Assembly (NCBI GenBank): GCA_948567375.1
Contig: OX419755.1
Location: forward strand, 84,462,218 to 84,526,217
Direction: 5' to 3'
DNA: 64,000 nt
Source of the DNA: Lunularia cruciata
Lineage: Eukaryota > Streptophyta > Marchantiopsida > Lunulariales > Lunulariaceae
In this document: one piece after another, positions 1,248 to 30,154 of the stretch
How positions within the stretch are numbered: position 1 is the first letter of the stretch
How the letters are laid out: each line of letters begins with the position of its first letter
Program-made: the position numbers and the translations under genes
The notes under the pieces: model-generated
Database searches by the model: none
Told to the model about the DNA's origin: nothing
The model's input: only the letters and a program-made list of their open reading frames with translations

Positions 1248-1696
1248 TGTCACGCCATTTGTAGTTCCGCATCTAGATGCTTGGACACTGGAGTTCCAGT
1301 GATGGTAGTTAGAGTTATTCTAGCTGTTTCTCAGGGACTACTTTCCGACGGTTAGATTTTGTGTTTGGGGTACTGACTTCACGGTGGGGCCCACCGTCAC
1401 TTTGCACCGTTTGCACCGTCGAGTGTGCCGTCAGCGGGACCGTTAGGGTTTCAGGGCTAGCTCGAGTCCAGGGGGTATAGTTTCAAAGTGAGCTCCAGAG
1501 AGCTCACTTCTCTGATGTTGAGCCTTCGAGTTCCTGGCTATGGTGGACAGAGGCCGGTGAGCGTCACCTGGATTCTCTATGCTTGAGTGGGTGTGGCTTG
1601 ACTGTAATCAGTGCCCAGTTGTTGGCAGTTTATAGAGTGACAGATCAAGTATTGATCTGAGTTGAGTTGAGTTGAGAATGTTAAGCAATCTGATTA
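1248..1696 (+). repeat. Terminal repeat A1 of element M copy 1
   Basis: 449 bp, from TGTCACGCC to CTGATTA, with no length difference from A2 at 10261-10709. The six differences are all C/T or G/A. Unlike the 3' side, it is not preceded or followed by the 107-bp B repeat. Copy 2 shows the same A-only 5' end (31293 to 30821). Confidence 0.9.
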
Positions 1697-1712
1697 CATC
1701 AGAGAAGTGAAG
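1697..1712 (+). promoter_or_regulatory. Possible primer binding site of element M
   Basis: Directly after A1 the sequence reads CATCAGAGAAGTG, and copy 2 has the same bases next to its A1. It shares ATCAGAG with the common plant initiator-Met-tRNA primer site TGGTATCAGAGC but not the leading TGGT, so the assignment is weak. Confidence 0.3.
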
Positions 1713-2149
1713 TCAGGGGGAAATCGGGTGCAGGAACGTTGAGTGTTGGTGGTATCTCCAAGCTCGGTGGATCGTGGTAGCTCGACTCAGGTTCTGTGTT
1801 TCCCTAGTGTGCAGAAGCTCGTGTAGTTGATGCAAATTTGGCAGTTAGGCGGACGGTGTGCGGAAGCGCTGGCCAAATTTTGAGCAAAGAAGGAGCAATT
1901 TTCGAGCAATGTTGTGATTTTGAGCTCAGGAGGTGAAGGCAGGACCAATTTGCTGCGAGTTGGGCTCAGAAAGTGAAATTGAAGGTGGAGTTGGAAAGCT
2001 CTTCTCATGAAATTGTGATTTGGAAAAACCCGTTTTGTCAATTTGGCTCGAGTGGAAAGTTAGCGGGGGATTTGGCGGACATCCATCTTTAGGGTTTACG
2101 TCAGATTTACGTCAGATTTTGGGCCAGAATTGGAGGAGTTTCGCTGTTT

Positions 2150-2381
2150 GGCCAGATTTGGAGAAGTTTCGCTAGTTTGGAGGAGTTTCGCAGATTTGGA
2201 GAAGTTTCGCCAATTTTGGAGGAGGTTCGAAGTGGCAACAAGAAAGGCCTCATTTGGCTGTGTTTGGCCAGATTTGGAGAAGTTTCGCTAGTTTGGAGGA
2301 GTTTCGTAGATTTGGAGAAGTTTCGCCAATTTTGGAGGAGGTTCGAAGTGGCAACAAGAAAGGCCTCACTTGGCTGAATTT
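2150..2381 (+). repeat. 116-bp tandem duplication in the element M leader
   Basis: Two units, 2150-2265 and 2266-2381, begin GGCCAGATTTGGAGAAG and end in GGCCTCA.TTGGCTG. Within each unit the motif TTTGGAG[AG]AGTTTCGC is itself reiterated several times. Copy 2 has a single related unit (about 30290-30380), so the duplication is specific to copy 1. One unit difference is CGCAG versus CGTAG, again a C/T change. Confidence 0.8.
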
Positions 2382-2530
2382 CGGCATTTAGAGGCTTCGA
2401 GGCATAGGGCTGTGGGCTATGAGAGGCTATGAAGGCCTAGAAGGGCCAGCAAGCCAGCTTGCTGGCGTGAGGCTAGCTAGTTTAGTGTAGATCTTGGTCA
2501 TTGGTTGGCAAAATCTGCCTTTCTTGCTAG

Positions 2531-2602
2531 ATTGTGCGCAACAGGGTTTGACCCCTAGATCTCTTGTTCCTAGACTGGTGCCCTAGCCAACTGGTCCACC
2601 CT
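2531..2602 (-). repeat. tRNA-like (SINE-head-like) sequence in antisense
   Basis: Read on the minus strand this is GGGTGGACCAGTTGGCTAGG, then GCACC and, after an anticodon-arm-sized gap, GGGGTCAAACCC. These resemble the A box and B box of pol III promoters at tRNA-like spacing, as in plant tRNA-derived SINEs. Copy 2 keeps it at 30080-30154 in the same place relative to gag. It is degenerate and no tail or target duplication was found. It could be a captured SINE or a chance tRNA fragment. Confidence 0.5.
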
Positions 2603-3102
2603 CACTTGTTGTCATAGTGACTGTGCCACTGTTATCTATACACATGTAGCTTTGGCTAGGAGAGGCAGTTTGATCCCATTCTTGGTGATCTTGGTAGCTT
2701 AGGACTTAGATACGAACTACTCTTATGTCAAATGCCAAATGGTGGCAGAGTCAGTCCCATGTTGTGTTATGAGATGGAGGGTTTTTGTTTAGATTTCTTG
2801 TGATTGGATCCCCTCCATTCTCTGCTTCCTGTTTGTGCACCACGTTTGTGTGAGGTGCCTTGACTTTTGAGCGTTGGTGCTCTGGTGTGCTCTCGGTGGT
2901 GAGGCTGGAGTGATGACCAGTCAGACTACCTTTGTTTCTCTCCGGTGAGGCAGGAAGTGATGACCTGCAGACCGTGAGAGTGCGTGTTATGATGGCAGGT
3001 TACAAGTTGCCCTTCCCCTAGTGTAGTTATCTCGGTTAGAGTTACATTAGTGGGTGGTGTCTAGTTGGTGTTGGCACTTGGTGGGGCACTTGCAGTTGCG
3101 AC

Positions 3103-4596
3103 TTGCGGTTGCAGTTGGTGGTTTGGGTTTGCTGTTGCAGTTACGTGGTCACGACGGAGTTCTTTGGAGATTCCAGAGGAGTTAGCCCTGCAGTACGCAG
3201 TGGGTTTACTCGGAGTGGTGCTCGGTATCAGCCTGTATCTCAGGTCCCAGTGAGGGAGGAGATTGACTCTGAGTTGGAGTTTGACACAGGAGCTGATTCA
3301 GTTGAGAGTGCACTTGGTGTGTCCGCACCGTTGTTGTGGGACATGGACGAGATTTATGGGGCCTCCAAAGGGCCTAGGCGTTACTCTGGTACAGTGGGTA
3401 CTATTGAGTTGGATGATTTCATCCAGGAGTTTGATAGTTGGTGTGATCTGCAGCAGATGCGGAACCCGACTTTGTTCACACCCTTCATGGCATGGAAGGG
3501 GTTGTTTCAGCACTTGGAGGGTCCACCGATGGACGACTACCATGAGTTCAGGAGAGCTCATTTGGAGGAGATTGAGTTATGGAGACAGTATTGGTCTCCA
3601 CACTATGTCTCCATCACTTCAGGTTTGGTGGCCAGGAGTAGGTCGGCTGTACCTACGAGTTCTAGCTCGAGTAGTGTTGGTGGAGCTAGTGGAGGTGCAC
3701 TAGCTGGAGATAGTGCTACTACGAGTGGAGGTACCACTGCAGGAGGTGGTGTGGTACCGGGGTTTAACCCCATGGTGGAGTTCTTCCTATGTTTGAGGCA
3801 GAACTACCAGGGAGTGCGGACTGACAAGCTGAGGAGCTTGCAGGAGTTCCAGCGGAAGGCTGGAGAGAGCCTACGCGAGGCATACACTCGCATGAGGCGG
3901 CTGATCAGTTTCACTCAGGGAGTTACTGAGGCCCAGGCAGTCCAGTTTTGGTATGGGATACTGGACAGGGAGTTGCGACGTAGAGTTCGTGATGCTATGT
4001 TGTTGCAGGCTACTTTGCCCACTTTGGCAGTAGTCTTTGGTTTGGCTGAGCGTATTGAGCTCAACATGGTGGAGGAGAGAGTGGTGACAGCTGGATTTGG
4101 TAGAGAGACCTCATCCACGGTTGTGACTTCTTCTAGAGTGCAGCAGAGTGCACCACGCCCAGTTGGTTTTTGAGGACAGGGTGGACAGCCCAGATCCTAT
4201 GGAGCGAGTGGAGGGCCTAGTGGAGTTAGACCCTTACCCTCATTTTCGGGTCAGCAGCAGCCAGTGAGTGGTGGTGTTGCTTGTTGGACTTGTGGTGGAC
4301 CTCACCATAGGAGAGAGTGTACTCAGGGCAGCGGACCTGATACCTCTGGTGCATCACAGCCAGCACAGAGGCAGTGTGAGCATTGCCATAGATTTGGTCA
4401 TACTAGTGACCGGTACTTTGACCTACACCCGGAGTTACGGAGTGGTAGGGCTGCTATGACAGGTAGTAGAGGAGCTCTAGTTCATGGAGGACGAGGTGGT
4501 AGAGGTGGTGGTAGAGGATCTACACCTAGTAGGGGTGCGGTACCTGCCCTTACTTCTGACACAGCTATGGCTACTCGGATTGAGCAGTTGGAGTAG
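3103..4596 (+). pseudogene. gag: Gag (capsid plus zinc knuckles), element M copy 1
   Basis: Structural polyprotein that would package element RNA. The open frame from 3103 gives an acidic N-terminal half, a Ser/Gly-rich hinge (about 3640-3760) and a helical capsid-like part ending near 4170, with R-rich helices (LDRELRRRVRDAMLL). Nucleocapsid follows in the same frame: CWTCGGPHHRREC, a near-canonical knuckle, then CEHCHRFGHTSDRY, where copy 2 has the final Cys that is Tyr here. An RG/GGR-rich basic tail follows. A TGA at 4171-4173 separates capsid from knuckles and is shared with copy 2. A TAG at 4594-4596 stands where copy 2 encodes Gln. The true start codon is uncertain; the hydrophobic first residues are probably not part of the protein. 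Confidence 0.75.
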
Positions 4597-5910
4597 AGAT
4601 TGGCTAGTATGGCTATTGCTCAAAGGAGATTAGATTCAGGTGCTGAGGCTTCCACCTCATATGCTGGTGATAGAGATGCTTTGGACTTCATGTGCGGAGC
4701 AGCACAGGTGGATGCATCTGCAGCAATGACTAGGAGTGCAGTACGTGCTCCAGAGCCTAGAGGAGCATCAGTGGAGTTGGACCCACAGAGAGGAGAGGTT
4801 GGGAGACAGGTCAGACTTCCCCAGTCTTTCACACTATCTGAGGCATTGCAGACGACATCCATGGTTCCTAGACGTCCCAGTGCAGGTGTGGTAGGTGGTG
4901 ATGGAGTACCTGATGGAGTACCTACTAGTCAGCCACCTGCTACTACACAGACTGAGTCTAGCATGATGTTGGGGGCGGCTCAGCTGATTATGCGGCATCC
5001 TTTATTTTCAGCCAATGACATGTTTACATTGGGAGTTGACCCAGCCCTAGTGTTCTGGTTGGCTGCCACGTTGTGTGAGAGTAGGGATGGTGCAGTTCCT
5101 ACTACTAGAGCAGAGGTGGTTGGTAGTGGAGCTGACTTGGTTGAGGAGCATGGGATCCGTTCAGCGACTAGTGGTTTATGGCAGGCAGCAGCGGCTAGAC
5201 TGGAGGAGTTGCCAGCTAGACCGGCCTTTGAGAGAGCACGGTTTACACCTGGTGTTGTCCTATTGGATAACCAGAGGGGGATCTTTTGTTTAGTGGGACC
5301 TTCAGGGAAGGTCTATACACCAGAGAGAGTCTTGTTAGACTGTGGTGCGCAGCCCCTTATGTTGGGGAAGGCTGCAGTTGTTGGTCTGGAGTTACGGAAG
5401 ACCGATGTGGAGAGGTGTCCATTTCAGATCCAGACATCTCTAGGTGGTGGTTCGACACAGTACATCACACGTGGGGAGCTTGTTGTCCAGGTTCAGCCTG
5501 GTCATCCGATTGATAGCTCGGTGGTGAGAGCTCAGGCTATTGCGACGATAGCTGAGTCCTATGATGTGCTAGTTGGGGGAGCAGTGTTATATCCTATGGG
5601 TTTCAGTATTGACTATTGGGAGGAGACAGCCTCTTATAGACCTGGTTGGCAGTCTGGTGAGGGACGGGTATGTCGTCTACCAGTACGTTTCAGTAGTGGC
5701 AGTCTTGGCTCACTACAGTCCGGGACCATGGCAGCATCAGTTTTGGCTTTCAGCGGTGCAGTCACTTGGCCTGGTGACTTGTTGGAGGGGAATGCCCATG
5801 CAGAGGATACTCCAGTACCAGAAGAGATCACTCGGCTATGGAGTACGAGTGGGATTGTTCCATCCACCTTGGATGTTCCATTGTGGAGTTCAGAGGAGGC
5901 ATTGCAGTAG
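4597..5910 (+). pseudogene. Aspartic protease region, element M copy 1
   Basis: Same frame as Gag. The retropepsin active site is visible as VLLDCGAQPLMLG with the D-C-G-A tetrad at 5338-5349, followed by strands consistent with a retroviral-type protease (GGSTQYITRGELVVQVQ; YDVLVGGAVLYPMGFSIDYW). A long linker of about 200 residues, rich in G, S, T and R, precedes it. Such proteases act as homodimers to cut the Gag-Pol polyprotein. The frame ends in a TAG at 5908-5910 directly before the methyltransferase. The context LQ-stop-HADQ suggests a CAG Gln codon turned into TAG. Copy 2 carries the same region at 13500-12537. Confidence 0.75.
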
Positions 5911-7335
5911 CATGCAGATCAGTTGGTGCAGCAGGCTTGGAGTGGAGCCTTCGTACCATCAGGGGATGAGTGTGAGGATGAGCCTCCAGAGGCGATTGCT
6001 TTGACACCTCTGGATACCACACTCATTGCTTGGCAGTACGCAGTAGAGGGGATATGCCTATTGGAGTTGTTTGGTGGGATTAGCACCGGACTAGCTGCGG
6101 TGTTACAGGCGGGTATCCGAGTACAGAGGTACTTGTATGTAGAGAGAGATGAGACTGCTAGGCGAGTCTCTCTACATCATGTGGCACACTTGGCCTATCG
6201 GTATCCAGAGTTATTACCGATGTCAGCAGTCAGAGGTTACCAGAAGGCCTTACCAGGAGACATTTCCTTATTGGGGGCGCATGACCTAGAGAGACATGGG
6301 CCTATTCACTTGGTGATTTCTGGATGGCCATGTCAGGGACATACACATGCGGGCCGCGGTTTGGGTCTTCAGGATCCTCGTTCTGGTGTGTTTTGGGAGA
6401 TGTTACGGATACTACGACATCTCCAGGTTCATCAGTCTGTTTCTCCAGCTTACCTTTTGGAGAACGTTCCATTGATGGGTGATTCTCGCACTAGAGTGGT
6501 GGCGAGTACACATCAGGTCCATTCATGGATGGGACCTGCTGTATTGTTAGATGCAGCCAGAGTGGGATCACGGGCTCATCGTCTTCGTCTTTGGTGGACA
6601 AACCTTTTACCCAGAGAGGTTCTACAGCGTAGTTATGATGGGATTCAGCGACTTGACCACATCCTTGTTGATGATATCTTGGATGTTGGGCGTCAGTCTC
6701 AGACAGTGGTAGTGGCTGATAGGTCACCTATGGCAATGGTGAACCTAGTTGGACAGCCTAGAGCTGCATTTCCCACACTCATGAGTTTCCCAGGCTCTCA
6801 TGCTTTTCGAGAGGGAGGACATGGACTTGTTTGGGACTCACAGTTACAGTAGTTGGTGGAGCCCAATGCTGATGAGAGAGAGCGGGCGATGGGTTTTCGC
6901 ACTGGTATTACCGCTGTTCCAGCAGTGTCAGAGGCATCCAGGCGTCAGGTGTTAGGTCAGGCTATGGACCTGAACTATTTGACCTGGATTGTGAGCCTTG
7001 GTTTGGCAGAGCAGCGTAGGATGCGCTTGATAGGCATCACCACTCGGACACTTGTGAGCCCTGTGCCTATCGAGATGATTCAGGCACATGCTGGGGGCGA
7101 TGGACCGAGTGGACATGGTATTCTTGGGACACATCCAGTAGCTACTAGGGAGAGTGGTCTACTTGGAGTCCATCCAGGTGAGCGTGGGCTACTTGGATTA
7201 CACCCTTGGTCCACATGGGATGCAGCCAGAGGACGTATGGAGCTTGCAGCCAGAGTGGAGGGAGTTTTTCACACAGAGGTTGGGACCTCTAGTGGTTGGG
7301 AGCATGACACCATTGCTCCCAAGGGCCCAGTGTAG
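5911..7335 (+). pseudogene. Cytosine-5 DNA methyltransferase (DNMT3-like) inside the retrotransposon
   Basis: Would transfer methyl from S-adenosylmethionine to cytosine C5 in DNA. Motifs occur in the canonical order. Motif I is ELFGGISTGL at 6061-6090, and an acidic VERD follows for cofactor ribose (motif II). Motif IV is GWPCQGHTHAGRG with the catalytic Cys codon at 6331-6333. Motif VI is ENVPLM at 6460. Motif VIII is GSRAHRLRLWW. A target-recognition stretch follows, and a motif X-like GQAMDLNYLTWI lies after the TAG at 6850-6852. FGGISTG and AHR.R.WW resemble DNMT3 rather than MET1/CMT; the unpermuted order excludes plant DRM. It sits in frame with protease upstream. A C-terminal tail (7080-7335) has repeats of G-(I/L)-LG-(T/V/L)-HP. 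Without the TAG the domain would be near full length (about 400 residues). Confidence 0.88.
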
Positions 7336-8450
7336 CAGCCAGTCAGTACGTCTTCCACTCCTACTACAGTTACAGAGGATACTTGGGAGCCAGATCTTGG
7401 ACCCAAGCTTACTGGAGAGGAAAGACGGAGGGTTTGGAGGTTCTTGAGGAGTCACACGAGTTGTTTTGCCTTCAGTATGAAGATTATGGTGCTCTGAAGG
7501 GACCTGGTATACGGATTGAGCTGACTAGCGACACACCTGTTTTCTGACGTCCTTATCGATATAGTGAGATGGAGAGGACATTGATTCAGAGCCGGAGTAG
7601 TGACCTTTTTGAGGCTGGTTTGGTGGAGATTTCACATGGAGAGTATGCATCAGCGATAGTGATGCCAGCCAAGAAGGATATGCATGGCAACTATACAAAT
7701 AGGCGGATGTGTGGAGATTACCGTCCTATCAACCGACAGACCAGGGCTGATTGGTATGCCATGCCTACACCGGAGGAGATTTTTGATGCGATTGGGCATG
7801 CAAAGGTCTTCAGTACTTTGGATCTTCGAGCGGGATATCATCAGTTGCCGATCAGGGAGGAGGATAAGTCCAAGACAACATTTTGGGCTATTGATCCTCA
7901 CGGCAAGGATGTGTTATATCAGTGGAGATTCTTACCATTTGGGTTGAAGAATGCTCCTGCTGAGTTCCAGAGGGTCATGGATAGGATCCTAGCTGGACTG
8001 GATTTTGCTCGGTGCTATATTGATGACATTTTGGTGTATAGCACTACTGTGGAGGAGCATGAGAGATAGTTGTTGGAGGTGTTTGAGAGGTTGAGATCTC
8101 ATGGACTCAAATTACATCCTGGGAATTGTAGGTTCTTCCATGAGCAGGTTGAGTATTTGGGTCACACTATCTACCCCGGAGGACTTGGTGTTCAGCAGAC
8201 CAAGGTGGAGGCTATTGCACGTATTCCTTGGCCTACGGATGTGAGCAGAGTGCGAGCATTCCTTGGGTTGGCGAACTTCTATCACCGCTATGTTAGAGGA
8301 TTTAGTGCCATTGCCAAGGCCTTGACGAAGCTGACCAAGCTTACACAAGAGTGGTGTTGGGGAGATGAGCAGGAGAGAGCTTTTGTAGAGCTCAAGGAGA
8401 GGTTGACATCTGCTCCTATTTTGAGGAGACCGATCAGGGGACGACCATTT
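7336..8450 (+). pseudogene. pol: Reverse transcriptase, element M copy 1
   Basis: Copies element RNA into DNA. A linker continues the methyltransferase frame to about 7475, where the frame changes. The RT frame then reads through a TGA at 7545-7547 (context VF-stop-RPYRYSE, where a CGA Arg is expected). Recognisable blocks are MCGDYRPINRQT, FSTLDLRAGYHQLPI, FLPFGLKNAPAEFQRVM, and the catalytic YIDD at 8016-8027. A TAG at 8067-8069 interrupts HER-stop-LLEVFERL. After it come LGLANFYHRYVRGFS and the RT-RNase H connection. The catalytic aspartates are intact. The sequence is clearly Ty3/gypsy in type. Confidence 0.9.
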
Positions 8451-8820
8451 CAGGTTCACATTGATTGGAGTATGTTGGGGCTTGGAGCGGTGCTCACCCA
8501 ACATGATGATGAGGAGAAGGAGTTTGTGGTGGCCTATGCTAGTCGCTCCAACAATTCAGCGGAGGCGAAGTATAGTTCATATGAGGGAGAGTGCTTGGCA
8601 GCAGTTTGGGCAGTAGCACATTTCCGATGTTACCTATTTGGTAACCCCTTCACTCTCATCACTGATCATCAGCCGCTGAAGTGGTTGATGGAGTCCGACA
8701 AGCTTTCAGGGAAGCTTGCACGATGGGCTCTGATTTTACAGGAGTATGATTTCACGGTTGTTCACAGACCTGGAGTGGTGAACCGTGATGCAGATGGGTT
8801 GAGTAGAAACCCATGTCCCA
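8451..8820 (+). pseudogene. pol: RNase H domain, element M copy 1
   Basis: Degrades RNA in the RNA-DNA hybrid during reverse transcription. It continues the RT frame without a break. The acidic residues of the gypsy RNase H are in place: HIDWS, then SYEGECLAAVWAV, LITDHQPLKWL and VNRDADGLSR. The tether YLFGNPFTLITDH and the ending VVHRPGVVNRDADGLSR are typical of the family. Confidence 0.88.
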
Positions 8821-9834
8821 GCCAGCAGGATCAGACCGGAGCACGTTGGCATGGTGAGACAGATGAGGAGATGGTGCCAGGTTGGCATGCATCAGCCTTT
8901 CTATGTATATTTGCAAAGACATTGGTGGTATCTCTCTCAGCGCATACAGGAGGAGTTATTGAGGTCACAGATCCAGAGAGTGAAGATATTGGTACAGTTC
9001 AGCGAGACATTCATGATGATGTCTTAGTGATGGACTATCTTCGCACTGGTGTTGTGGGTGGCACAGTTGGGGCCAAGGAGAGAGACCGTGTTCTTCAGCG
9101 AGCCAGACGGTTCAGATTGGAGGGTAGACACCTTTTGCGTGTATGGGAGGATGGTAGAGTGCGAGTAGTACCACTTCCATCATAGAGACCACAATTGGTC
9201 CGTCATGCTCATGAGGAGCTAGGACATTTTGGAGTAAAGCGTACATATAGCTTACTCCAAAGTCATTATTGGTGGCGCGGTATGCAGACCGAGGTACAGC
9301 AGTTTGTTGCCAGATGTGTGGTTTGTGACCGAGTTAGAGCATCATTCAATGCTCCTACGCCACAGTTACACCCATTACCTATCATGGGATTGGGTTACCG
9401 TTGGAGTTTGGACAGCCATTCGTCGAGATGCTACTGTAGTTTTGGACTTGGATGACCCTGATGTATGGATGAGCGCATGTTCTCAGCGGGCAGAGATCTT
9501 TCGGAGAGTGATGCCGATGGCCTTTGAGAACTTGGCGATTGCTCAGCATAGAGATACTTTACGCTATGCTACCATTCGAGGAGGAGGTTATAGACCCTCG
9601 ATCCGTCGATTTCATCCAGGCGACTATGTATATCTACAGCAGACAGCACCGACGACACTTGATGTTTCTACGGGCCGCACTATCTTGAGAGTGCGCGAGG
9701 TTTTGCCATCTGGAGTCCTTGTGTTAGAAGGACGTGATGGTGTTGTTTGGAAGGATCATGTGCGCAATTGTGAGCCATGCCACCTTCCAAACATTGATGG
9801 TACTATGGATCCAAGCTTGGCACTTGTACGTGCA
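8821..9834 (+). pseudogene. pol: Integrase with catalytic core deleted, element M copy 1
   Basis: The N-terminal HHCC zinc-binding domain is present (RHAHEELGHFGVKRTY ... CVVCDRVRAS, 9201-9340), after a TAG at 9183-9185. The start of the core, YRWSLD, keeps its first catalytic Asp at 9411-9413. Immediately after, the sequence jumps to another frame that encodes the C-terminal part (MPMAFENLAIAQHRDTLRYA; RRFHPGDYVYLQQ, a GPY/F-like beta module). The roughly 150-200 residues with the second Asp and the Glu are missing, so strand transfer would be impossible. The reading frame from 9430 continues into the PHD finger. Confidence 0.8.
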
Positions 9835-9984
9835 GGCTTGAGGTGTATGTTATGTGGCTCTTCTAGTGGAGCTGCTACTATGTTAGTGTGTGATAGCTGT
9901 TCGAGAGGATGGCATGTGGCATGTATGACTCCTCCCCTCACGGTGGTTCCTCAGGGACAGTGGTTATGTCCTAGATGTACTTGA
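9835..9984 (+). pseudogene. PHD finger at the polyprotein C-terminus, element M
   Basis: In frame after the integrase C-terminal module. The spacing C-x2-C-x11-C-x2-C-x4-H-x2-C-x14-C-x2-C is seen from 9844 (CMLCG) through CDSCSRGWHVAC to WLCPRC, ending in TGA at 9982. The Trp two residues before the last Cys pair and the GWH context are typical of PHD fingers that bind histone H3 tails. It takes the place that a chromodomain holds in chromoviruses. All eight ligands are intact. I infer a role in steering integration or the methyltransferase to chromatin; nothing here proves it. Confidence 0.85.
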
Positions 9985-10151
9985 CCTATAGCTAGTTCAT
10001 TCTTTATATGGTATAGATTGCAGACAGGCGACTAACGATGGGGCTCCATAGCACCCGGCCTCCTGATCTTTGCCCATTAGAGGGTATACCATATACTTAG
10101 AGTAGATGGCTATCTGGAGTTAGAGGGACCTAACCACCAGCTAGGAGGGCG
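9985..10151 (+). other. 3' untranslated region and polypurine tract of element M
   Basis: No open frame. It ends in AGCTAGGAGGGCGA (10138-10151), the only purine-rich run near the 3' repeats and directly before B1, as expected for the plus-strand primer of reverse transcription. Confidence 0.5.
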
Positions 10152-10258
10152 ATTGTGGCACTTTAGAGTCTATGTATGACTTATGTGTGAGTTGTGCTTT
10201 TATAGTGTATGATGTTGACAGCGATGTATGTTGTGTAGCGATGTATATACGCACGACA
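10152..10258 (+). repeat. Terminal repeat B1 of element M copy 1
   Basis: 107 bp, ATTGTGGCAC to ACGACA, identical to B2 at 10709-10815. It lies between the purine tract and A2. It contains TATA-like strings (CTTTTATAGTG; GTATATACG), so it could hold the promoter with transcription starting near the beginning of A. Confidence 0.85.
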
Positions 10259-10264
10259 GCTGTC
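10255..10264. other. Palindromic B1-A2 junction
   Basis: GACAGCTGTC is a perfect 10-bp palindrome made by the end of B1 (GACA), a GC spacer and the start of A2 (TGTC). It looks like two element ends joined head to tail, as in the junction of a circularised retroelement. Confidence 0.7.
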
Positions 10265-10709
10265 ACGCCATTTGTAGTTCCGCATCTAGATGCTCGGACA
10301 CTGGAGTTCCAGTGATGGTAGTTAGAGTTATTCTAGCTGTTTCTCAGGGACTACTTTCCGACGGTTAGATTTTGTGTTCGGGGTACTGACTTCACGGTGG
10401 GGCCCACCGTCACTTTGCACCGTTTGCACCGTCGAGTGTGCCGTCAGCGGGACCGTTAGGGTTTCAGGGCTAGCTCGAGTCCAGGGGGTATAGTTTCGAA
10501 GTGAGCTCCAGAGAGCTCACTTCTCTGATGTTGAGCCTTCGAGTTCCTGGCTATGGTGGACAGAGGCCGGCGAGCGTCACCTGGATTCTCTATGCTTGAG
10601 TGGGTGTGGCTTGATTGTAATCAGTGCCCAGTTGTTGGCAGTTTATAGAGTGACAGATCAAGTACTGATCTGAGTTGAGTTGAGTTGAGAATGTTAAGCA
10701 ATCTGATTA
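10261..10709 (+). repeat. Terminal repeat A2 of element M copy 1
   Basis: 449 bp, 98.7 percent identical to A1 by direct count (six differences, no gaps). Four differences fall in CG and two in CTG context. Confidence 0.9.
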
Positions 10710-10815
10710 TTGTGGCACTTTAGAGTCTATGTATGACTTATGTGTGAGTTGTGCTTTTATAGTGTATGATGTTGACAGCGATGTATGTTGTGTAGCGATG
10801 TATATACGCACGACA
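10709..10815 (+). repeat. Terminal repeat B2 of element M copy 1
   Basis: Identical to B1 and ends at the element border (GACA), followed by TTTG, which matches the left flank. Confidence 0.85.
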
Positions 10816-12536
10816 TTTGTGACAACTTTACTAGGCCCCACCTTGGCTTCGTGCACACTGTTCTTTCCTTTGGCAGTCCGTGGTCATGCCATGACTTCTT
10901 CTTCCTTGTTCTTCCCTCCCCGTTCAATCAAAGAGACTTCTAGACTCAACTTCTCGGTATCCATCATCTGCCTTCAAGTTTGCTGAACCTCCGCCTCACC
11001 TTCACTACCGCTACTTGATTCTTGATTTTGCGGGGTGAACTCTTCTTCTCCCAATGTTTCTCCCTTTGACCCGGTTTCTCCTTCGGACTCTTCTTTGGAT
11101 ACCGGCGTTGCTTCCTTCCTTTTCACGATCACTGCCGTTGGATTAAGCTTCTACACCTTTTGTGGTTGAACTGTCATAAGGCAACTTTCTGGCTTAATTC
11201 TCTTTTTGGCCCTCGGGATCTATATTGCTACAATCCTCTCCTTCCCACTTTTCTTGCAGTACTTATCTTCATCCCGCACCGTCTCCATATAATATTGTTC
11301 ATCCACATCCGCCTCTTTCTGCAAATCCGGATGAAAGTGCAAGTGCATGTGGTTCCTTTCTTCCAAAGTTAGCAAGTTCAGCCCAAAATAAAAATGAGAT
11401 GCAAAGGGCACAAAATAGTGTGGTGCATATCCATTCTCCAACCAATAATCATTTGCCCCACTTGTTGGTGCAGACATTTTGCCCAATCTATTGCCTCTCT
11501 TGCAAACATTTGGTAAAAGAACACCGCTTGTTGCATCATAACATAGGTGGTTTGCTCTAGCTTGAACATTGCCATCATTGTGCTTACAATCCCTCTCCTC
11601 TTAGGGTCTTTATAACTATCCATCTTATACACATTTTTGGTGCAAGGTTGATTGAACAAGTTTCTCACTTTGGCAGTCCCCTCTGAAGCATCACACTTCC
11701 AATAGAGGGTGGTACCTCCTTCCTCTCCTACTTCTCTCCCCAAGACTATTCTCCAATTTGACTCTGTCCATCAAGCCAGATTTCCCCTCTTCTCCTCGTG
11801 CTTTTGGCCCATCCTTGCAATTGCTTGCTATGATTTCTACCATGAAACCTGGAATACTAAAGTTCCAGTTCTAGGCCAAGAACATTATACAAAGTCTAAA
11901 CAAGACTTCAATCAGTGCTACTACTTCTAATCTACAAATTGCAAGTCCCCTCACCGCACTTTGCTTACTCACTTTTGGGGCCATCATGTGTTTCCTCACC
12001 CTCTTCTTGTAGAAGGTCATTCCCGAGATCCTAACCTACTCTTCCTCCTATGGATTTGCAATTTGCATTACTTTGGGTCAACTCTAAATAGGGACAGGGT
12101 AGTGTCTGGACATTGCGCTGCTCCCTTGCAAAACTCTTGATTTTATAGTCCTGCACTAGTTGTTCATTCTTTAGTTGTTTCTACGATTCACTAGTCACTA
12201 ATTCTGTGCGGTTGTTTCTTGTCACTATCAAAAACTTCTTGATCCCAAGGTCATTACTTTCTTCTTGCGTACTTTCTTGATTAACATACTCTGAAGAAGT
12301 TTGTTACAGGTTCTTCGGATCAAACTACACTGCCCAATACAAAATTGCCTTCTTTGTCTTCCTCTCTTGTCCATCTTGGGTCCTTTGGTCTTGACCCAAG
12401 GTTGACTTTGGGTTTGGCCCCAAACACATGCTTCTTCTTATTTCTTTCCCGTTTAGCCCTCCTTTGGCTTTACTAACGTCTTTCTTCTTCCAAATTCCCT
12501 TCAAACTATCCAAAACCAAAAAATGTGGGTACCACA
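10816..12536 (-). mobile_element. Family A LTR (L1), proximal part, minus strand
   Basis: On the minus strand it begins at 12536 with TGTGGTACCCACATTTTTTG, the start shared by the other family A LTRs, and continues to 10816, where element M interrupts it. The right flank is the protease region of M copy 2, so this LTR inserted into copy 2. The rest of the LTR is at 1247-665. Confidence 0.75.
11200..11780 (-). pseudogene. N-terminal domain of the family A U3 protein
   Basis: Minus-strand frames overlapping at 11743-11378 and 11486-11220 together encode the conserved globular part. It includes NVYKMDSYKDPKRRGIVST, then QTTYVMMQQAVFFYQMFARE, and after a frame change HYFVPFASHFYFGLNLLTLEE. The same order occurs in at least six other LTR copies here. 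One frameshift and the loss of the start make it a pseudogene. No known domain recognised. Confidence 0.65.
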
Positions 12537-13534
12537 ATTGTCTCCTCCTAATAGGTAATGCTGAAACCCATGAGGTATAACACTGCTCCCCCAACTAGCA
12601 CATTGTATGACTCTGCTATTGTTGTAATAGCCTGAGCTCTCTCCACTAAGCTATCAGTCGGATGACCAGGCTGAACCAGGACAACAAGCTCTCCACGTGT
12701 GATGTACTATGTTGAACCACCACCTAGAGATGTCTGGATCTGAAATGGACATTTCTCCATGTTGGTCTCCCGTAACTCCAGACCAACTACTTCAACCCTA
12801 CTCTCACAAAGCATGGTAGCCAACTAGAACACTGGGGCTAGATCAACTCCCAATGTAAACATGTCATTGGCTAAAAACAAAGGGTACCACATAATCAATT
12901 GAGCCACCTCCAACATCATGGTAGACTTAGTTTGTGTAGTAGCAGGTGGTTGACTAGCAGGTAGTCTATCATGCTCTCCATCACCACCTACCACACCTGC
13001 ACTGGGACATCTAAGAGCCATGGATGTTGTTTGCAATGCCTCAAATAGCATGAAAGACTAGGAAAGTCTGACTTGTCTCCCACTCTCTCCTCTTTGTGGG
13101 TCCAACTCCATTGATGCTCCTCTAGGCTCTAGAGCACGTATTGCACTCCAATTCACTACTTTAGATGCATCCATTTGTGTTGCTCCGCACATGAAGTCCA
13201 AAGCATCTCCATCACCAGCATATGAGGTGGAAGCTTCAACACTTGAATCTGATCTACTTTGAGCAATGGCCATACTAGCCAATCTTTGCTCCAATTTCTC
13301 AATCCAAGTAGCCATAGCTATATCCAAAGTAAGGGTAGGTACTGCACCTCTACTAGGTGTAAATTCTCTACCACCTCGTCCTCCATGAACTAGAGCTCCT
13401 CTACCACCAGCCATAGTAGCCCTACCACTCTGTAACTTTGGGTATAGGTCAAAGCATCGATCACTAGTGTGACCAAATCTGTGGAGAAATCTGTGACCAA
13501 ATCTGTGCAATGCTCACACTGCCTCTATGCTGGT
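12537..13534 (-). mobile_element. Element M copy 2, knuckle-protease segment
   Basis: On the minus strand, 13534 to 12537 matches copy 1 from about 4370 to 5630. It carries the second zinc knuckle (FGHTSDRCFDLY with the Cys that copy 1 has lost), the Q that copy 1 has as TAG (KLEQRLASMAIAQ), and the protease up to GEQCYTSWVSA in a shifted frame. Several frameshifts and stops are present. It is bounded on the right by the solo LTR 13535-17315 and on the left by the minus-strand LTR at 12536. This segment stops before the methyltransferase. Confidence 0.8.
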
Positions 13535-14108
13535 ATGGTACCCATATTTTTGTTCTTTTTCTTATTTTTTGAAGAAGAAGTGAACAAAAGAAGTCGTATT
13601 GTGCTTGTATGGCAGAAGAAGGCAAAGAAAGGTGTCTTCAGGTTGTAACCCAAGGTAAAGTGACTTTGTGTAAGAAGGCAAGGTACTCAAACTTGCCCTG
13701 TCAGCATACAACCCAAAGTAAGGAGACTTTGTCTTGGGGGTGCTCAACCTAAGGCAAGGACAATGTAACAACTTTCCTTTGGGGTGAGACATTCAAGAAG
13801 GTAACGCTCACAAAAATGGCGGTCATACGTGTGAGGGAAGATTGACAATGACAAGAGCATGCAAGAGGTGTGATTTCTTAGTAGAAATGTGGAGTGAAGA
13901 AAGACAAAGAAGGCATGCCACTTTAAAATTTGGGCTAGAGATGAAGCAATGACAAGTAATTTTCCATCATCGTTAAGAAGTAGTCTTGTGGGAGATCATG
14001 GGAAGGGAAGTATAGTCAAAGACGCACTGGTGTGCCAAGAGGAAGTCAGGAGAGTTAGTCCGGGATTAGTAGGAAGAATAGCCCCAACCTAGAGTGGAAG
14101 AGAGAAAG

Positions 14109-16521
14109 ATGGGAGGTGGGAAGAAGAACTCTAAATTTCTAGTGAGAAATCATGCAATTTGGAGGTTAGATGTGATTGCGAGAATTGAAGTCTTGAGCAG
14201 GCTTTGGATCACATTCTTGGCATGGAACTAGAACGTTAGCTTTCCAGGTTTCATGACTAAGATCATCAAGAGTAAGTGCCTTGATGGCCCCGAGGAAGAA
14301 GGCAAGAGAGGAAATCCGGCTTGATGGACAGAGTCTGATTGGAGATTAGTACTTGGTAGAGAAGTAGGCGTAGAGCATGGTGCTACATTCTTGGGGAAAG
14401 GAGAAGTAGCTGAAGAAACCCAAGAAGTGAGAGATGCTTTCTCTTTGATGCACACAAAGAATGGCTATAAAGTGGAGAGCTATAAAGATCCTATGAGGAG
14501 AGGTATTGTAAGTGCACTAATGGCAATCTTGAAGTCGGAGAGAATGACCTATGTGATGAAGCATCAAGCGGTGTTTTTCCACAAGATATTTGCAAGAGAG
14601 CCAATTAATTGGGCAAATTGTTTCCATCAAAGGACAAGATAGATGGTGTAGAATTTGCGAGACAAGTCGCCTCCACATTACATTGTGCCATTTGCAGCCC
14701 ACTTCTGTTGGGGCTGAACTTGCTCAATGCGGCAGAGAGACACAAGATGGTGTCACATTTCCATCCTGATTTGAAAAGAGAGGTTGATGCGGAGGAGCAG
14801 CAGTACATCTTGCAAATCAAGAGCAGCGACAAGTACTATGCGCAAATGGGGCAGAGTGTGCATTTGAAGGTGAGTACTCCAAAGTCAAAGAAGAGGAGTT
14901 GACAAGGAGGAGAAGAAGAAGTAGCGGTGGCAAGACCTTGGAAAGCTAGAAGGATGAACCCAAGGAGAGATTTGGTGGTAATTGTGTCGTCGGCAAAGAG
15001 TTGGACGGGGAGGCTGAATGCAAGTCCAAAGACTCAAGGAAAGAGGAAGAACCCAAGTTTATGTTGTAGAGTAGGGACACAAGTAGTGATAGTGATGATG
15101 GAGTGGAGATGCAGTCGGTACCCGAGGAGGAGGAAGTAAAGATGGAGACGGAGGAGAAAGGTAACCCAAAACCTGAAGACAAAGTTCCAGAGCAAGAGGA
15201 GAAGAGAGTGACTATTCAAAGGGAGGTCCATTCCACACGTAAGGCAAAGTATGAAGTGGGGCCAAGTAAGGTAAGAGAAGTGGAGAGTGGAAGTTTGGGG
15301 AGCAAATAATCCATTCCTATAAGGCAATTGTGGCTGAGAAGGCGAGTGTTGAGTGACAAAGAGGCAAAGAAGGAGACAAGTCCACAAGTCAAGGTAACTC
15401 CAAGTGAAGGAGTAGAGTATTTGTGGGAAATTATGTGCCTATTGTTAGTAAAGTTAGAGCACAAGAAGTGAGAGATATAGTCGAAGTGTCCAGAGGTGAA
15501 GACTGTATTGCAGGTGTTAGCGCAATTAGAAGAAGAGAACTCAGAATTGAAGAAGAGTGTAATCCAAGGTGAGGAAGAGAGGGAAGTACTACGAGTAGAT
15601 GCAGTAGTACAGAAAAAAGTAATTGAGAGCTTGAAGAGAGAAGTGGGGAGTAGAGAGAGAATCATAGAGCAAAATGACATAGCAAGAGAAAGACAAGTAG
15701 TGGAGAATGAGATCTTGAAATAGCAATTTGCTGATTCACGATTAGAAATTATCCTTGCTATGGCAAGAGTAGCAAAGAAGGAGCAAGAGCTTGATAGAGG
15801 GATGGAGAATGTAGAGGAGAAAAAGCAGCTCTAGCAAAGGGAGTTGACTGTGTGATATAAAGAAGAAGAAAGATTGAGAGAGTTACTTCGTAATCTAGAG
15901 GAGAAGATTGTGCAAAAGGAGAAGGAGATAGTGAAGGCTGAGTTTGAAGTAGAAATGGCAATGAATAGAGAAGATTGGCTAGCAGATTTGGAACGTGAGA
16001 GAACAATGAGGCTTGAGCTATTGAAGGAGATAGTGACAAAGATGAATGCAATGCTGAGTATGGAAGCCAACATGCAAATTGAAGAGACAAGATTGCACGA
16101 GTTGAAGTTGTTGGTGCAAGAGACAAGGAGGAGAAATGCAAAGGATAAAGACTTGAATGCCTTACTTATCAGTCTAAGAACTCATGTAGATAGGAAGATA
16201 TTAGAAGTAGAAGATAATATCACAACTGGATTAGCTTTAGTGAAGATGGAGATAGATAAACTTCAAAAGGATGTGAGAGCAAAGCCCGAAGTAGATGACA
16301 TAGGAGTACAAATATCTTTGGAATTACCATCAAAGATATTAGAGAAGGGTGGGTGAGGAGATAAGGAGTAAGATAGATTACCCACTAGAGTAATTGTAGA
16401 TTAGAGCAAAGAAGCAGTAGAATTGGTAGAAGAGTTGGAAGTTGTGAAACCCAAGGACGGAGTAGTAAGTGAAGTTACTTTGGGACTGGAAGCCAAAGAA
16501 GTAGACATCAGATCAGATTAG
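14109..16521 (+). pseudogene. U3 protein of family A LTR (copy in L2)
   Basis: Long broken frame from MGGGKKNSKFLVRNHAIW at 14109. It continues through the globular block GYKVESYKDPMRRGIVSALM, TYVMKHQAVFFHKIFAREPI and PHYIVPFAAHF. An acidic linker follows (EEEEVKMETEEKG, about 15130), then a long coiled coil (LEEENSELKKSVIQGEEERE at 15530; 15874-16356 open for 160 codons), ending GLEAKEVDIRSD-stop at 16519. The same start, blocks and C-terminus (VDIGSE-stop) recur in other LTR copies. The function is unknown; it is not gag, pol or a known envelope. It lies upstream of the LTR promoter, so it would be expressed from the 3' LTR part of genomic RNA or from an outside promoter. Confidence 0.6.
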
Positions 16522-16638
16522 TAACAGTTTTGAGATTTGAAGAGGCAGATATGAAGGGGTGCATTGCCATTTTGGATCTGTAGGTTAGAAGAGTTGTTAG
16601 GAAATGGTATAGTTGTTTGTAACTGTCATTTGCTTCAC

Positions 16639-16646
16639 TATTTAAG
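16639..16646 (+). promoter_or_regulatory. TATA-like box of family A LTR (L2)
   Basis: TATTTAAG at about 670 bp before the LTR end. The same box occurs at the same distance in other copies (22245-22254, 38542-38550, 46487-46495, 58419-58428), so it is the likely U3/R promoter. Confidence 0.6.
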
Positions 16647-17315
16647 AGTGGCATTCACAAGATATTGTTGTTTAGTGCTCATAATTCTTGAGAATAGATA
16701 AAGCAAAGTGATGTGAAGTAGTGCTCGTCATTGAGGTTAATTTTGAGTATCAATTCTATGTCTATGCTTGTGAGTGTGTGGAGAAATTTAAAATGCAAGT
16801 CAGTGTCCTTGTTGGATGTTGGATTCCACAACCTTGATCTTCATTCTGTGTGTTTGGTCTTGAGTGAAGTGCAATCAAAGCAATGCCTTGACAAATCTGA
16901 GAGGAATTGTAGTGTTGGTAGTATTTTGCATTTGTGAGTGTAGCGTTGAGTTGATGTGAAGCAATTTTGATCCAGGAAGTTGTGCCTTCAGTGGAGAAGT
17001 GGAACACAATTTTGAAGTGAAGTCATATAACTGCGAAGTGCCATTTTTAGGAGAGCCTGAATCATCACAATCAAGATTATTTGGAAAGATTTGATGTAGT
17101 TGTGATTAAGTGTGACAAATTGTTGTGACAAGACTACAATTCAATGCTTGTTACTCTCTTTTGGATGTGTTTCTACTTGAGAGATTAAAGATGCAATCAA
17201 GAAGAGCTGAAGTTGTTACTTTACTTTGTATTTGACCAATTCTAAATCATATTTCTATGGGAACAAACTTTACTTACCTGATTACTGCAAAAGTGATATT
17301 TGCCGGGTTGTCACA

Positions 17316-17864
17316 ATTGGTTGTGATGCACCAGAGGTATTAGGTCCACTGCCCTGAGTACACTCTCTCCTATGGTGAGGTCCACCACAAGTCCAACAAG
17401 CAACACCACCACTCACTGGCTGCTGCTGACCCAAAAAAGAAGGTAAGGGTCTAGCTCCACTAGGCCCTCCACTTGCTCCATAGGATTTGGGTTGTCTACC
17501 TTGTCCTCAAAAACCAACTGCGCATGGTGCACACTACTTCACTCTAGAAGAAGTCATAGCCGTGGATGAGGTATCCCTCTTGAATCCACATGTCACCACC
17601 CTCTCCTCCACCATGTTGAGCTCAATATGCTTAGCCAAACCAAAGACCATTGCCAAAGTGGGTGAAGTAGCTTGTAACAACATAACACCACGAACTCTAC
17701 GTCGTAACTCCCTATCCAATATCCCATACCAAAACTGGACTGCATGGGCCTTAGTTGCTCCCTAAGTGAAATTGATCAGCCGCCTCATGCGAGTGTATGC
17801 CTTGTGTAGGCTCTCTCTAGCCTTCCACTGGAACTCCTGCAAGCTCCTCAGCTTGTTAGTCCTA
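17316..17864 (-). mobile_element. Element M copy 2, gag segment
   Basis: Minus strand, matching copy 1 from about 3820 to 4350. It encodes the capsid end (MDRELRRRVRGVMLL), the shared TGA (17507-17509) and the first zinc knuckle (CWTCGGPHHRREC). The left border is the duplicated ATTGG next to L2. The right border is GTCCTA (17859-17864), the target duplication of family B. Confidence 0.85.
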
Positions 17865-18553
17865 TGAGCTGGTCTGTCTCTCACTTAGGATGAACCTTTG
17901 ATGGCTATTATGGTAGCGCACCATGGACTAAGAAGGCAGGGAATCCCAACTCCATCATACTCCTCCAAGGCTAACACTCCAAGACTCAAGACATTGTTCA
18001 CTAGAGAACTCAATGAGAGAGAGATAGTTGCAAATGAAAGGATGATGAGTACCTCATCACCTCTTGTTTATATACTTGTGAAATAGTTATGCACCAAAGT
18101 TACTAATTACCATAGTAACTCAAGTTACTAGGCTAAAAGTCAAGTAAAGTCAAAAAGTAGAAAGGAATATCTATTCACATGGGCATATTCCCTTACCATG
18201 TGATCTTATCTTGACCCAATCACTAAGTCAAGGATTCCTTCACATGGGCTATCCTTGGACTATAGAAGAATCCAAAATAAAAAGGCTTGTGGGCCCAAGA
18301 GTTCTCAACTCTTTCCTCAAAGTCAAACACCTAAGAATAATACTAAGTCAACACACTAGGATCCAAAATAGTGGTGATCATCTTTTCCACTTCCTCTAAA
18401 GTAAGGTCCCCACTATCTTAGCTATGACTAACTTTAGCCAATCATGACTAATATATAACCATCCTCTATCTCTATTTGAATAATATGTCTCAAGTATTTG
18501 TAATACCAAGCTCAATATCACAATACCAAACAATTGCACAAATGGGTGTTACA
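17865..18553 (-). repeat. 3' LTR of family B
   Basis: On the minus strand it runs from TGTAACACCCATTTGTGC to GACAGACCAGCTCA. It has a TATA-like TATATAAACAAG near 18062-18076. The first 210 bp match 28823-28622. It is preceded on the minus strand by GAGGACAAAGTG..., the usual 3' end of plant gypsy pol transcripts. Confidence 0.7.
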
Positions 18554-18569
18554 TTTACCACCGGACTAA

Positions 18570-19800
18570 GTTTTCACTTTGTCCTCAAAGTGAATGTCTC
18601 TCTACCTTCTATGATACATCTTCAACTTATCATGGTTAATCCTATCAAAGTGTCTTCCTCCCAACTCCTTGAGATCATAGGTGTAATTGCTCCACACCTT
18701 CTCCACTATGGAAGGTCCAAAGTACTTAGGCAAAAATTTCTTTTGCACTCTCTTGAATCAAATAGAATCAAACAACATTACCCAATCACCTTCTTTGAAA
18801 GGCTCCACCTTCTTCTTGCCTTGACTCTTGTCATAACTCTCCTTTTGTTTCCTTTAGGCTTGCTCCACTCTAACCATAGCAACTGCTCTTGCCTCTTCCA
18901 ACTCCATGAGTTGTCCCTTCCTTGACTTCTTTGCATCACCTCCTTGTGCTTTCTTCAATCTCTTATGAATGCTTTGGAAGGTCAAAAGATCAAAGTGAAT
19001 AGGTAGGGTAGACTTAATACCATATACCAATTGAAACGGAGAATATCTGGTGGAAGTCTTCATGGTTGTCCTATACTCCCACAAAACTGCATGAATCCTC
19101 TTGTCCCAATGGTGTTTAGCTCCCTCAATTTCTGCATCTTTGGCCAACATCATGCACAAGGTCTGATTGGTTCTCTCAGCCAAGCCATTGGAATTCAGCT
19201 TATAAGATATAGTTACTCTATGTTTGATAGAGAAATAGCATAGCATGGCTGTAGTAATGCTTCCTATAAACTCTCCTCCTCTTTCACAAACCAACTCCAA
19301 AGGGCACCCAAACCTAGTAATAATGTATTCATAAAGAGATCTCCCAACTTCATCTTCATTCTTGTCCGCAATGGTCTAGCCTCAACCCACTTGGTAAGAT
19401 AATCAATAACTACCACAATATACCAATTGTTCCTTGGGGTTCTATTGAGAGGACCTAGAATATCAATTCCCCACTTCTCAAAAGGTCCTAGCAATAGAAT
19501 TGATCTAAGTGGTGGAGTGGAAGTAGACTTTCTAGCAAAAGCTTGACAAACATGACAAGTTTTGCAATAATCAAGACAATCCTTGAGAATCCCTCTCCAA
19601 TGGTAACCTGCATCTAGAATCTTGAAAGCAGTCACCTTTCTTGCAAAGTGTCCTCCACACAATAAACCTTCATGAAACTCCTTTATGAGTAGGATAGACT
19701 CTTCCTTACCAATGGCTCTTCAAAGAAAACCATCTGCTCCTTGGTGAAAAAGAATATCCTCCACCATTGTGTAAGGTCTAGATCTTGCTGCAAGGGCCTT
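18570..19800 (-). pseudogene. pol: Integrase of family B
   Basis: Minus strand. A zinc-binding region is visible (GGHFARKVTAFKILDAGYHW ... CKTCHVCQ). The catalytic core starts FEKWGIDILGPL with the first Asp. The second catalytic position reads LVCERGGEF, with Glu where Asp is expected. The third Glu is in NGLAERTNQTL. The C-terminal part has a GPF module (FLPKYFGPSIVEKVW). Frames change near 19300 and stops occur near 18750 and 19690, so it is not functional. Confidence 0.8.
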
Positions 19801-20200
19801 CCTCTATCTAGCATGCATCCCTTCTAGATAGTTACCTCTTGAGTGACTGACATTGTCATGAGCTCTTCATCCGAGAAGGAATCATCTACTGGCTCATCTC
19901 CATCATGATCATAGGCCCTAGATAACAAATCAGCATTTGCATGTTTCTTTCCTGGCCTATCTTCAATGGTGTAGTCATACTCAGACAAGAGTATCATCCA
20001 CCTTGCTAGTCTTCCTTCAACATTAGGCTTTCTGAAGATATAGTTCAAGGCCTTGTGATCCATGACAATGGTGGCTTTCCTTCCAATCAAGTAGTGTCTA
20101 AACTTCTTGAGACCAAAGATCATTGCCAACACTTCTCTCTCCGTGACAAAGTAGTTCTTTTTTGCTGAAACCATCTGCCTACTAGCATAAGCTATTGGAT
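19801..20200 (-). pseudogene. pol: RNase H of family B
   Basis: Open on the minus strand from 20174 to 19827: AKKNYFVTEREVLAMIFGLK, then VMDHKALNYIF, LARWMILLSEYDYTIE and KKHANADLLSR. It follows the RT with one frameshift. The acidic residues E, D and D of the second half are in place. Confidence 0.82.
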
Positions 20201-25507: not shown

Positions 25508-25900
25508 AAAGGTCTTGAGGGTATTCATTGCTGATCAACTTCTTCATCAACATTTCTAACATGGCACTCACCGTTGATCCTCCATCAACCAATGCATCCT
25601 TGATGTTGTGACCATTCACTCTCACATCAATCTTGGAGGCATATTCACAAGCCTCCCATAGTGTTGGTTTGGCATCTCCCACCCCCATTGATACTGGAGC
25701 TTTTGCCTTCTTCTCCCTCTTGCTCCTTAGAGAACTCAAACCACCTTTAAGCTCCTTTCTCAAACTAGGATTCAAAGCAATCAATTGGCCCACTGTGATG
25801 TTAGCCTTGTGACTACCAACATCCTCCAAGACATTGTAGTTCCATTATTGCTTTGAGATCAAGAAGTCCTCTATCTCCAACTTCTTCCTTGGAGTCTTTG
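25508..25900 (-). pseudogene. Aspartic protease of family B (partial)
   Basis: Minus strand from about 25830 to 25508. The active site DALVDGGSTVSAM is present with D-G-G in place of the usual D-S/T-G. The + strand relative at 37072-37100 reads DALVDGGLAMNAM. It is cut at 25508 by the end of LTR L4. Upstream linker MEDVGSHKANITVGQLIALN is shared with the + copy. Confidence 0.75.
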
Positions 25901-28621: not shown

Positions 28622-28823
28622 CCCACTAGAATCCAAAATAGCGGTGCTCATCTTTTCCACTTCCTCTAAAGTAAGGTCCCCACTATCTTAGATATGACTA
28701 ACTTTAGCTAAATATGACTTATGTAGAACCATCCTCTATCTCTATATAAATAATATCTCTCAAGTATTTGTAATACCAAGCTAAATATCACAATACCAAA
28801 CACATACACAAATGGGTGTGATA
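28622..28823 (-). repeat. Partial 5' LTR of family B
   Basis: About 200 bp close to 18553-18344 of the left LTR (shared GGTATTGTGATAT, AGATAGAGGATGGTT, GGGGACCTTACTTTAGAGGA). Similarity stops abruptly at 28621. Confidence 0.7.
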
Positions 28824-28828
28824 GTCTA

Positions 28829-30079: not shown

Positions 30080-30154
30080 AGGGTGGACCAGTTGGCTAGG
30101 GCACCAATCTAGGAATAAGAGATCTAGGGTCAAACCTTGTTGCGCACAATCTAG
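30080..30154 (+). repeat. tRNA-like sequence in M copy 2 leader
   Basis: GAGGGTGGACCAGTTGGC, then TAGGGCACC and GGGTCAAACCTTG, counterpart of 2602-2531. It runs antisense to element transcription. Conservation in two diverged copies shows it is part of the element, not a private insertion. Confidence 0.5.

Follow-up and report, generated by a model that had tools for sequence, protein, structure and literature searches.

In 2018, a DNMT3-type domain was described in the Pol polyprotein of a long terminal repeat (LTR) retrotransposon of the gypsy type, KnitGypsy-Dnmt3 of the alga Klebsormidium nitens (PMC5890265). Here we analyzed a 64,000-nucleotide stretch of the Lunularia cruciata assembly (contig OX419755.1, positions 84,462,218 to 84,526,217; hereafter, the window), in which positions 1248-10815 are a single Ty3/gypsy-type element with a methyltransferase sited between the protease region and the reverse transcriptase. 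Very probably, it belongs to a bryophyte Ty3/gypsy family with a DNMT3-type enzyme at this place and is a decayed copy, self-primed and inserted in a permuted form, and the most likely substrate of the enzyme is the element's own complementary DNA (cDNA).

This kind of element has been known since 2018, and what is added here is its relatives in mosses and liverworts. The first-pass annotation of the window had overstated the novelty, since the same architecture was already published for Klebsormidium (PMC5890265). KnitGypsy-Dnmt3 is like the Lunularia element in having the DNMT3-type domain inside a gypsy Pol and in combining gypsy domains with DIRS-type repeats in the order A-coding-B-A-B (PMC5890265, Fig. 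4 legend). It differs in its host, an alga instead of a land plant, and the likeness rests on the published description. A term search of the main text of that paper returned no self-priming, primer binding, PHD, palindrome, circular or target site, and no moss, liverwort or Marchantia. SymbioDIRS-Dnmt3 of Symbiodinium is also a retroelement with DNMT3 in Pol and the order A-coding-B-A-B, but it has a tyrosine recombinase, whereas the Lunularia element has a gypsy-type integrase zinc domain (PMC5890265). A paper of 2025 reported retrotransposon-embedded DNMT3s in streptophytes and dinoflagellates and named Copia and DIRS families (PMC12344493). The relevant passages of PMC8226279 deal with host DNMTs. 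Among the open-licence papers listed in our literature searches, none reported DNMT3-carrying retroelements in bryophytes.

Tf1/sushi-type self-primed elements are similar in another respect: their primer site follows the left repeat and is complementary to a segment inside this repeat. To our knowledge, they have no methyltransferase and an ordinary LTR arrangement. Our results suggest that self-priming, a PHD finger and insertion through a circle junction are additions to the known kind, and these additions rest on few copies. A retroelement that itself encodes the enzyme for the mark by which it is silenced reverses the usual picture of host versus transposon, and the role of this enzyme was left open by the 2018 study of the alga and dinoflagellates (PMC5890265).

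The methyltransferase is of the DNMT3 type

Frame +1 is open over 5911-6849 (313 codons), is closed by a TAG at 6850 and is open again over 6853-7332, up to a TAG at 7333. When these 1425 bases were simulated 1000 times with a first-order Markov model, no run was as long as 313 codons (mean longest run 99, maximum 219). The piece 5911-6849 matched DNA_methylase in Pfam (E = 2e-8, 34.5 bits, cut-off 22), and the NCBIfam scan of the methyltransferase gave only the general dcm model, below its cut-off. When the same piece was searched against the Protein Data Bank (PDB), the first 29 matches were DNMT3 sequences, with DNMT3A the best (E = 5.4e-10 over residues 48-233) and HaeIII the first match of another type (E = 4.2e-4). 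A profile search ranked the C5 methyltransferases in the order DNMT3A (8.6e-21), DRM2-named chains (2.7e-6) and DNMT2 (5.9e-4); DNMT1 was absent among the PDB profile matches listed at E up to 1. Comparisons of sequence, of profile and of predicted fold all put DNMT3A/3B first. The matches listed in the fold comparison had no DRM or DNMT1 row, which is no evidence against either.

The first-pass annotation had read methyltransferase motifs I, II, IV, VI and VIII and a motif X-like block in canonical order, and this was confirmed over 5911-7332. Motifs I (LFGGISTG), II (YVERDE), IV (WPCQG), VI (ENV) and VIII (HRLRLWW) follow one another, and the blocks GFRTGIT and GQAMDLN stand after the internal TAG, C-terminal to motif VIII. 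The catalytic residues are kept in nearly all rows of the family alignment that cover them. On this sequence evidence, the enzyme of the element is classified as a DNMT3-type, unpermuted C5-cytosine methyltransferase. A captured DRM, against which the annotation had also decided, was ruled out by the unpermuted motif order (I to X) and by a DNMT3A score well ahead of that of DRM2. The element enzyme has the order of its motifs and its predicted fold in common with DNMT3A/DNMT3B, which are also its best sequence matches. It differs from them in that it is 22-26% identical in the fold-comparison rows, has PCQ instead of PCN, and gave no ADD or PWWP match in the Pfam scans of the element pieces.

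The fusion recurs in other bryophytes

Among about 5.8 billion proteins searched with the methyltransferase piece of the window, 106 relatives were found. An alignment-based search found 358, the best 120 of which were listed, and both searches together gave a family set of 157 distinct members. When queried with the protease region of the window, 36 of the 106 relatives had such a region upstream of the methyltransferase; when two natural queries were added, this was the case in 48 of the 157. In a Riccia protein (P0079), methyltransferase, linker and reverse transcriptase are in one frame. Two other proteins (P0110 and P0121) have a DTGA-type protease motif and four methyltransferase motifs in a single unbroken frame, and six family members have the DTGA-type motif before the PC motif. 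A Calypogeia protein of 714 amino acids (P0108) has all four methyltransferase motifs without the protease motif. The methyltransferase was found alone in 107 of the 157 relatives; many relatives are on short contigs, so a missing neighbor domain means little. A point against the arrangement comes from P0055, in which a Gag-like stretch is joined to the methyltransferase with no protease between them.

The named hosts among the matches listed were Calypogeia fissa, Sphagnum troendelagicum, Sphagnum tenellum, Marchantia polymorpha, Marchantia paleacea and Riccia sorocarpa, and metagenomes were also present. No Klebsormidium sequence was among the named relatives listed. Because a protease lies upstream in 48 of the 157 relatives and the Riccia protein joins methyltransferase and reverse transcriptase in one frame, the fusion belongs to the element, and judged from these proteins it is a heritable property of the gypsy family. 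The annotation had proposed that the methyltransferase is built into a gypsy polyprotein and had named a lack of other copies with the methyltransferase between protease and reverse transcriptase as what would refute it. Both the fusion, in proteins of other species, and the protease-methyltransferase order, in the relatives counted above, were found.

The window holds a single copy with a methyltransferase, as would be seen if a host DNMT3 gene or pseudogene had landed by chance in an ordinary gypsy element. However, the protease-methyltransferase order occurs in several clades and genera, and the Riccia protein extends the fusion to the reverse transcriptase. These independent relatives with the same domain order ruled out a chance landing, which we consider next to impossible.

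The tree had 51 rows and included 49 of the 157 relatives, the rest being excluded for short overlap or lack of a name. Its outgroup was a single DNMT3A fragment on a very long branch, and MET1, CMT and the host DNMT3 of bryophytes had no row in it. The window methyltransferase grouped with Marchantia paleacea (98/73; this row was filled in 46% of the columns) and the next fork joined Calypogeia (91/54); neither fork was starred. The enclosing clade was starred, and its named rows were all bryophytes. Together with the gypsy ORF at 49063-50406 described below, this points to a probably liverwort-like host. On the annotation's other proviso, a placement of the domain with a nearby host gene, the tree gave a partial answer: among the rows included, those nearest to the window methyltransferase are retroelement proteins or their fragments.

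One protein family is thus present in Calypogeia, Sphagnum, Marchantia, Riccia and metagenomes, with some frames unbroken, which makes the role of the enzyme testable in model plants such as Marchantia. If the Klebsormidium element is of common descent with it, the fusion would have been retained in charophyte algae, mosses and liverworts alike.

A second clade of the methyltransferase family had 12 tree rows, including P0020 and P0107, and its listed rows came from Joint Genome Institute (JGI) sources. Three of its members (P0027, P0049 and P0107) have an upstream protease region too. P0123, which is outside the tree and by eye similar to this clade, represents 170 member sequences. Viral contigs searched with the window protein gave no relative; the family alignment gave six weak loci there (L001-L006, 31-53% over short stretches), which were not used.

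Layout of the element

The order of protease, reverse transcriptase, RNase H and integrase is that of Ty3/gypsy (Metaviridae), with the protease assigned by homology only (Table 1). Residues 99-185 of P0121, to which the protease region is homologous, match Asp_protease_2 in Pfam (E = 1.4e-5). The annotation had stated that the methyltransferase shares its frame with Gag and protease, interrupted only by TAG stops. The shared frame held, but the interruptions within 3040-7335 are one TGA and four TAG. Its gypsy reverse transcriptase, downstream after a frame change, was also recovered. Pfam scans of the element pieces did not find the integrase catalytic (DDE) core after the H2C2 domain in this copy. 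None of the nine element pieces compared with Pfam matched a tyrosine recombinase, the enzyme of DIRS elements. The PHD finger at the end of the last ORF is an addition to the first-pass annotation. Its nearest PDB relatives are the fingers of CHD4, PHF12, KMT2 and KDM5. In chromoviruses, a chromodomain is at the same place, the C-terminus of the integrase.

Table 1. Features of the element and of a second copy in the window (ORF, open reading frame).
Feature	Position	Strand	Remarks
TTTG, candidate 4-bp target-site duplication	1244-1247 (left copy); 10816-10819 (right copy)		
Repeat A1, left end of the element, 448 bp	1248-1695	+	Starts TGTC; 442/448 identical to A2
Self-primer: 15 nt of A fully complementary to the primer-binding site, at the predicted 5′ end of the transcript	1504-1518	+	Second occurrence in A2, 10517-10531
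Putative primer-binding site for self-priming	1696-1710	+	Abuts A1
Gag-like ORF, then TGA	3040-4170	+	Pfam Retrotrans_gag weak, E = 0.009, below cut-off
Zinc-knuckle-like (nucleocapsid-like) stretch, then TAG	4174-4593	+	CCHC-like by eye; no Pfam match
Protease region, then TAG	4597-5907	+	Homology to P0121; no Pfam match of its own
DNMT3-type methyltransferase, motifs I to VIII	5911-6849	+	
C-terminal portion of the methyltransferase (motif IX/X-like), with linker	6853-7332	+	Beyond in-frame TAG
Reverse transcriptase, then TAG	7548-8066	+	Frame +3; Pfam RVT_1, E = 2.5e-20
End of reverse transcriptase and RNase H, then TAG	8070-9182	+	Pfam RT_RNaseH, E = 2e-36
Integrase H2C2 zinc-binding domain	9186-9413	+	Pfam Integrase_H2C2, E = 8.4e-19
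PHD finger, end of last ORF, integrase C-terminus	9844-9978	+	Pfam PHD, E = 3.6e-11; best PDB match CHD4, E = 8.2e-16
Purine-rich tract AGGAGGGCG, candidate polypurine tract	10143-10151	+	By eye; directly 5′ of B1
Repeat B1, 107 bp	10152-10258	+	Identical to B2
GC spacer in palindromic junction GACA-GC-TGTC	10259-10260	+	B1/A2 boundary
Repeat A2	10261-10708	+	
Repeat B2, right end of the element	10709-10815	+	Ends GACA
Second, older copy of the family, fragmented	12539-31300	-	LTR, gag and protease only; 78-90% identical; split by other repeats

Proposed self-priming and the permuted repeats

The repeats are direct and in the order A1, body, B1, GC, A2, B2, that is, A-coding-B-A-B. The site at 1696-1710 is perfectly complementary to 1504-1518 within A1 (15 nt), and the longest complement among 2000 random 80-mers of the element was 11. 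As in Tf1/sushi self-priming, the primer site comes directly after the left repeat and is complementary to the predicted transcript's own 5′ region. In the predicted RNA of 1504-1730, the primer site and its partner were paired in both the minimum-energy and the centroid folds. The 15-nt complement implies a Tf1-like self-priming, with a predicted transcript start near 1504. A self-priming layout of this kind is described in PMC2864245.

The self-priming layout places the right end of the LTR at 1695, and the purine tract that precedes 10152 would place its left end at B1. With these limits, the reverse-transcribed LTR would be B-GC-A. The A2|B2 joint (10708|10709) is the exact join expected of two cDNA ends, and the inserted ends (the start of A and the end of B) fall inside the predicted LTR, at GACA-GC-TGTC. 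The self-primer, the A|B joint and the TTTG flanks together suggest a circular cDNA that was cut open at the palindrome inside the LTR, most simply a two-LTR circle cut by integrase. For a spumaretrovirus and HIV-1, integrase is reported to cleave sequences that are palindromic or belong to two-LTR circles (PMC1180852, PMC1905944).

In the proposed cycle, the transcript would start near 1504, and its 5′ end would fold back onto the site at 1696 and prime reverse transcription. The cDNA would carry LTRs of the B-A type and have its ends joined, and integrase acting at the palindrome would give A-body-B-A-B with a 4-bp target duplication. It is possible, although doubtful, that in this manner a gypsy lineage which uses a DDE-type integrase has shifted to a DIRS-like cycle, with a self-primed two-LTR circle opened at GACA-GC-TGTC, permuted A-body-B-A-B copies and a Pol methyltransferase that marks the circle before integration.

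Several observations weigh against this cycle. The fold energy of the RNA was only mildly better than that of shuffled sequences (z = -1.69, with 8 of 200 as good). TTTG flanks both ends of the element, and a 4-bp match is expected by chance once in 256. No integrase core was found in this copy, so the integrase chemistry is assumed. Only one complete copy shows the whole arrangement of repeats; the second copy supports the left end only. Near 31300, the alignment of the second copy starts at base 11 of A, with the first ten bases unaligned, and its primer site is intact but the partner in A has one mismatch.

With a single complete copy, the B-A-B end might also be a tandem duplication of an ordinary LTR that arose after insertion, outside the life cycle. 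Such events do occur, as shown by a 116-bp tandem duplication (2145-2376, 98% identical) in the leader between the primer site and Gag. However, the candidate TTTG flanks the A1 start and the B2 end, the A|B joint is exactly at the boundaries of the primer site and the purine tract, and the 600 bases that precede the second copy at its left end gave no match to repeat B (score 16, shuffled mean 17.2). The Klebsormidium element also has the same repeat order (PMC5890265). We regard a later tandem duplication as quite improbable. Taken together, the signs of self-priming and the permuted repeats open an unusual route of integration to experiment.

Decay and past methylation

The copy at 1248-10815 is dead: it has in-frame stops and a frame change, and no integrase core was found in it. 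With its reading frame interrupted and shifted in this way, this copy could scarcely produce the enzyme today. The element is recently inserted though decayed. A1 and A2 differ by 6 substitutions in 448 positions, all of the C/T type, four at CG and two at CHG sites; the chance of this pattern if substitutions fell on random C sites is 0.006. B1 and B2 are identical across 107 bases. The observed/expected ratio of CpG is 0.82 in the B1-A2-B2 end and 0.38-0.60 across A1, the leader and the coding parts, but 0.15-0.18 in the second copy, which is strongly depleted, and 0.30 in the whole window. The family was thus probably methylated in the germline. This copy was probably methylated after its insertion, because all six A1/A2 differences are C/T-type at CG or CHG sites.

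Possible role of the methyltransferase

We tentatively put the chance that the selected role of the methyltransferase is to methylate the element's own double-stranded cDNA a little short of even. Self-methylation of cDNA is among the options discussed in PMC5890265. The enzyme, made together with the reverse transcriptase, would methylate the new double-stranded cDNA, so that copies arrive methylated, and this might shield the cDNA or limit the harm to the host. The host probably later methylated this copy or maintained the mark, and its decay would be due in part to C-to-T change. The dinoflagellate DIRS DNMT3-like enzymes methylate CG in yeast (PMC5890265). Two points weigh against self-methylation. 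In yeast, no methylation was obtained with the enzyme of Klebsormidium, a result that its authors call inconclusive (PMC5890265), and ordinary host silencing alone accounts for the past methylation of our copy without any self-methylation.

The selected target might instead be host chromatin, with a PHD-guided methylation near the insertion site or genome-wide that damps the cost of insertion. The PHD finger at the integrase C-terminus is in favor of this, and the fingers of CHD4, KMT2 and KDM5, among its nearest PDB sequences, are readers of the histone H3 tail. However, the methyltransferase and the PHD finger are far apart in pol, with a protease in the same polyprotein; the finger was seen in one copy only, and a joint action of the two is nowhere indicated. 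A host-chromatin target is unlikely in our view.

A role other than on DNA (methylating RNA, binding cDNA or supporting the reverse transcriptase structurally) is distinctly less likely. DNMT-like folds can act on RNA, as DNMT2 does, and the Klebsormidium result in yeast fits such a role, but the catalytic residues are conserved as noted above and the dinoflagellate enzymes do methylate DNA. Methylation of the element's own cDNA is thus the role that we tentatively prefer.

Other sequences in the window

No similarity to the methyltransferase was found in the second copy (12539-31300). The stretches 14084-17315 and 22272-25508 and related ones are other repeats, and a conserved WTESDWRLVLGREVG-like ORF occurs at several places of the window. 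By eye, further gypsy-like ORFs are at 35583-37195, 41961-43417, 47648-51960 and, on the minus strand, 18857-21293. In the database search made with it, the gypsy ORF at 49063-50406 had three relatives, of which one is named, from Marchantia polymorpha (42%).
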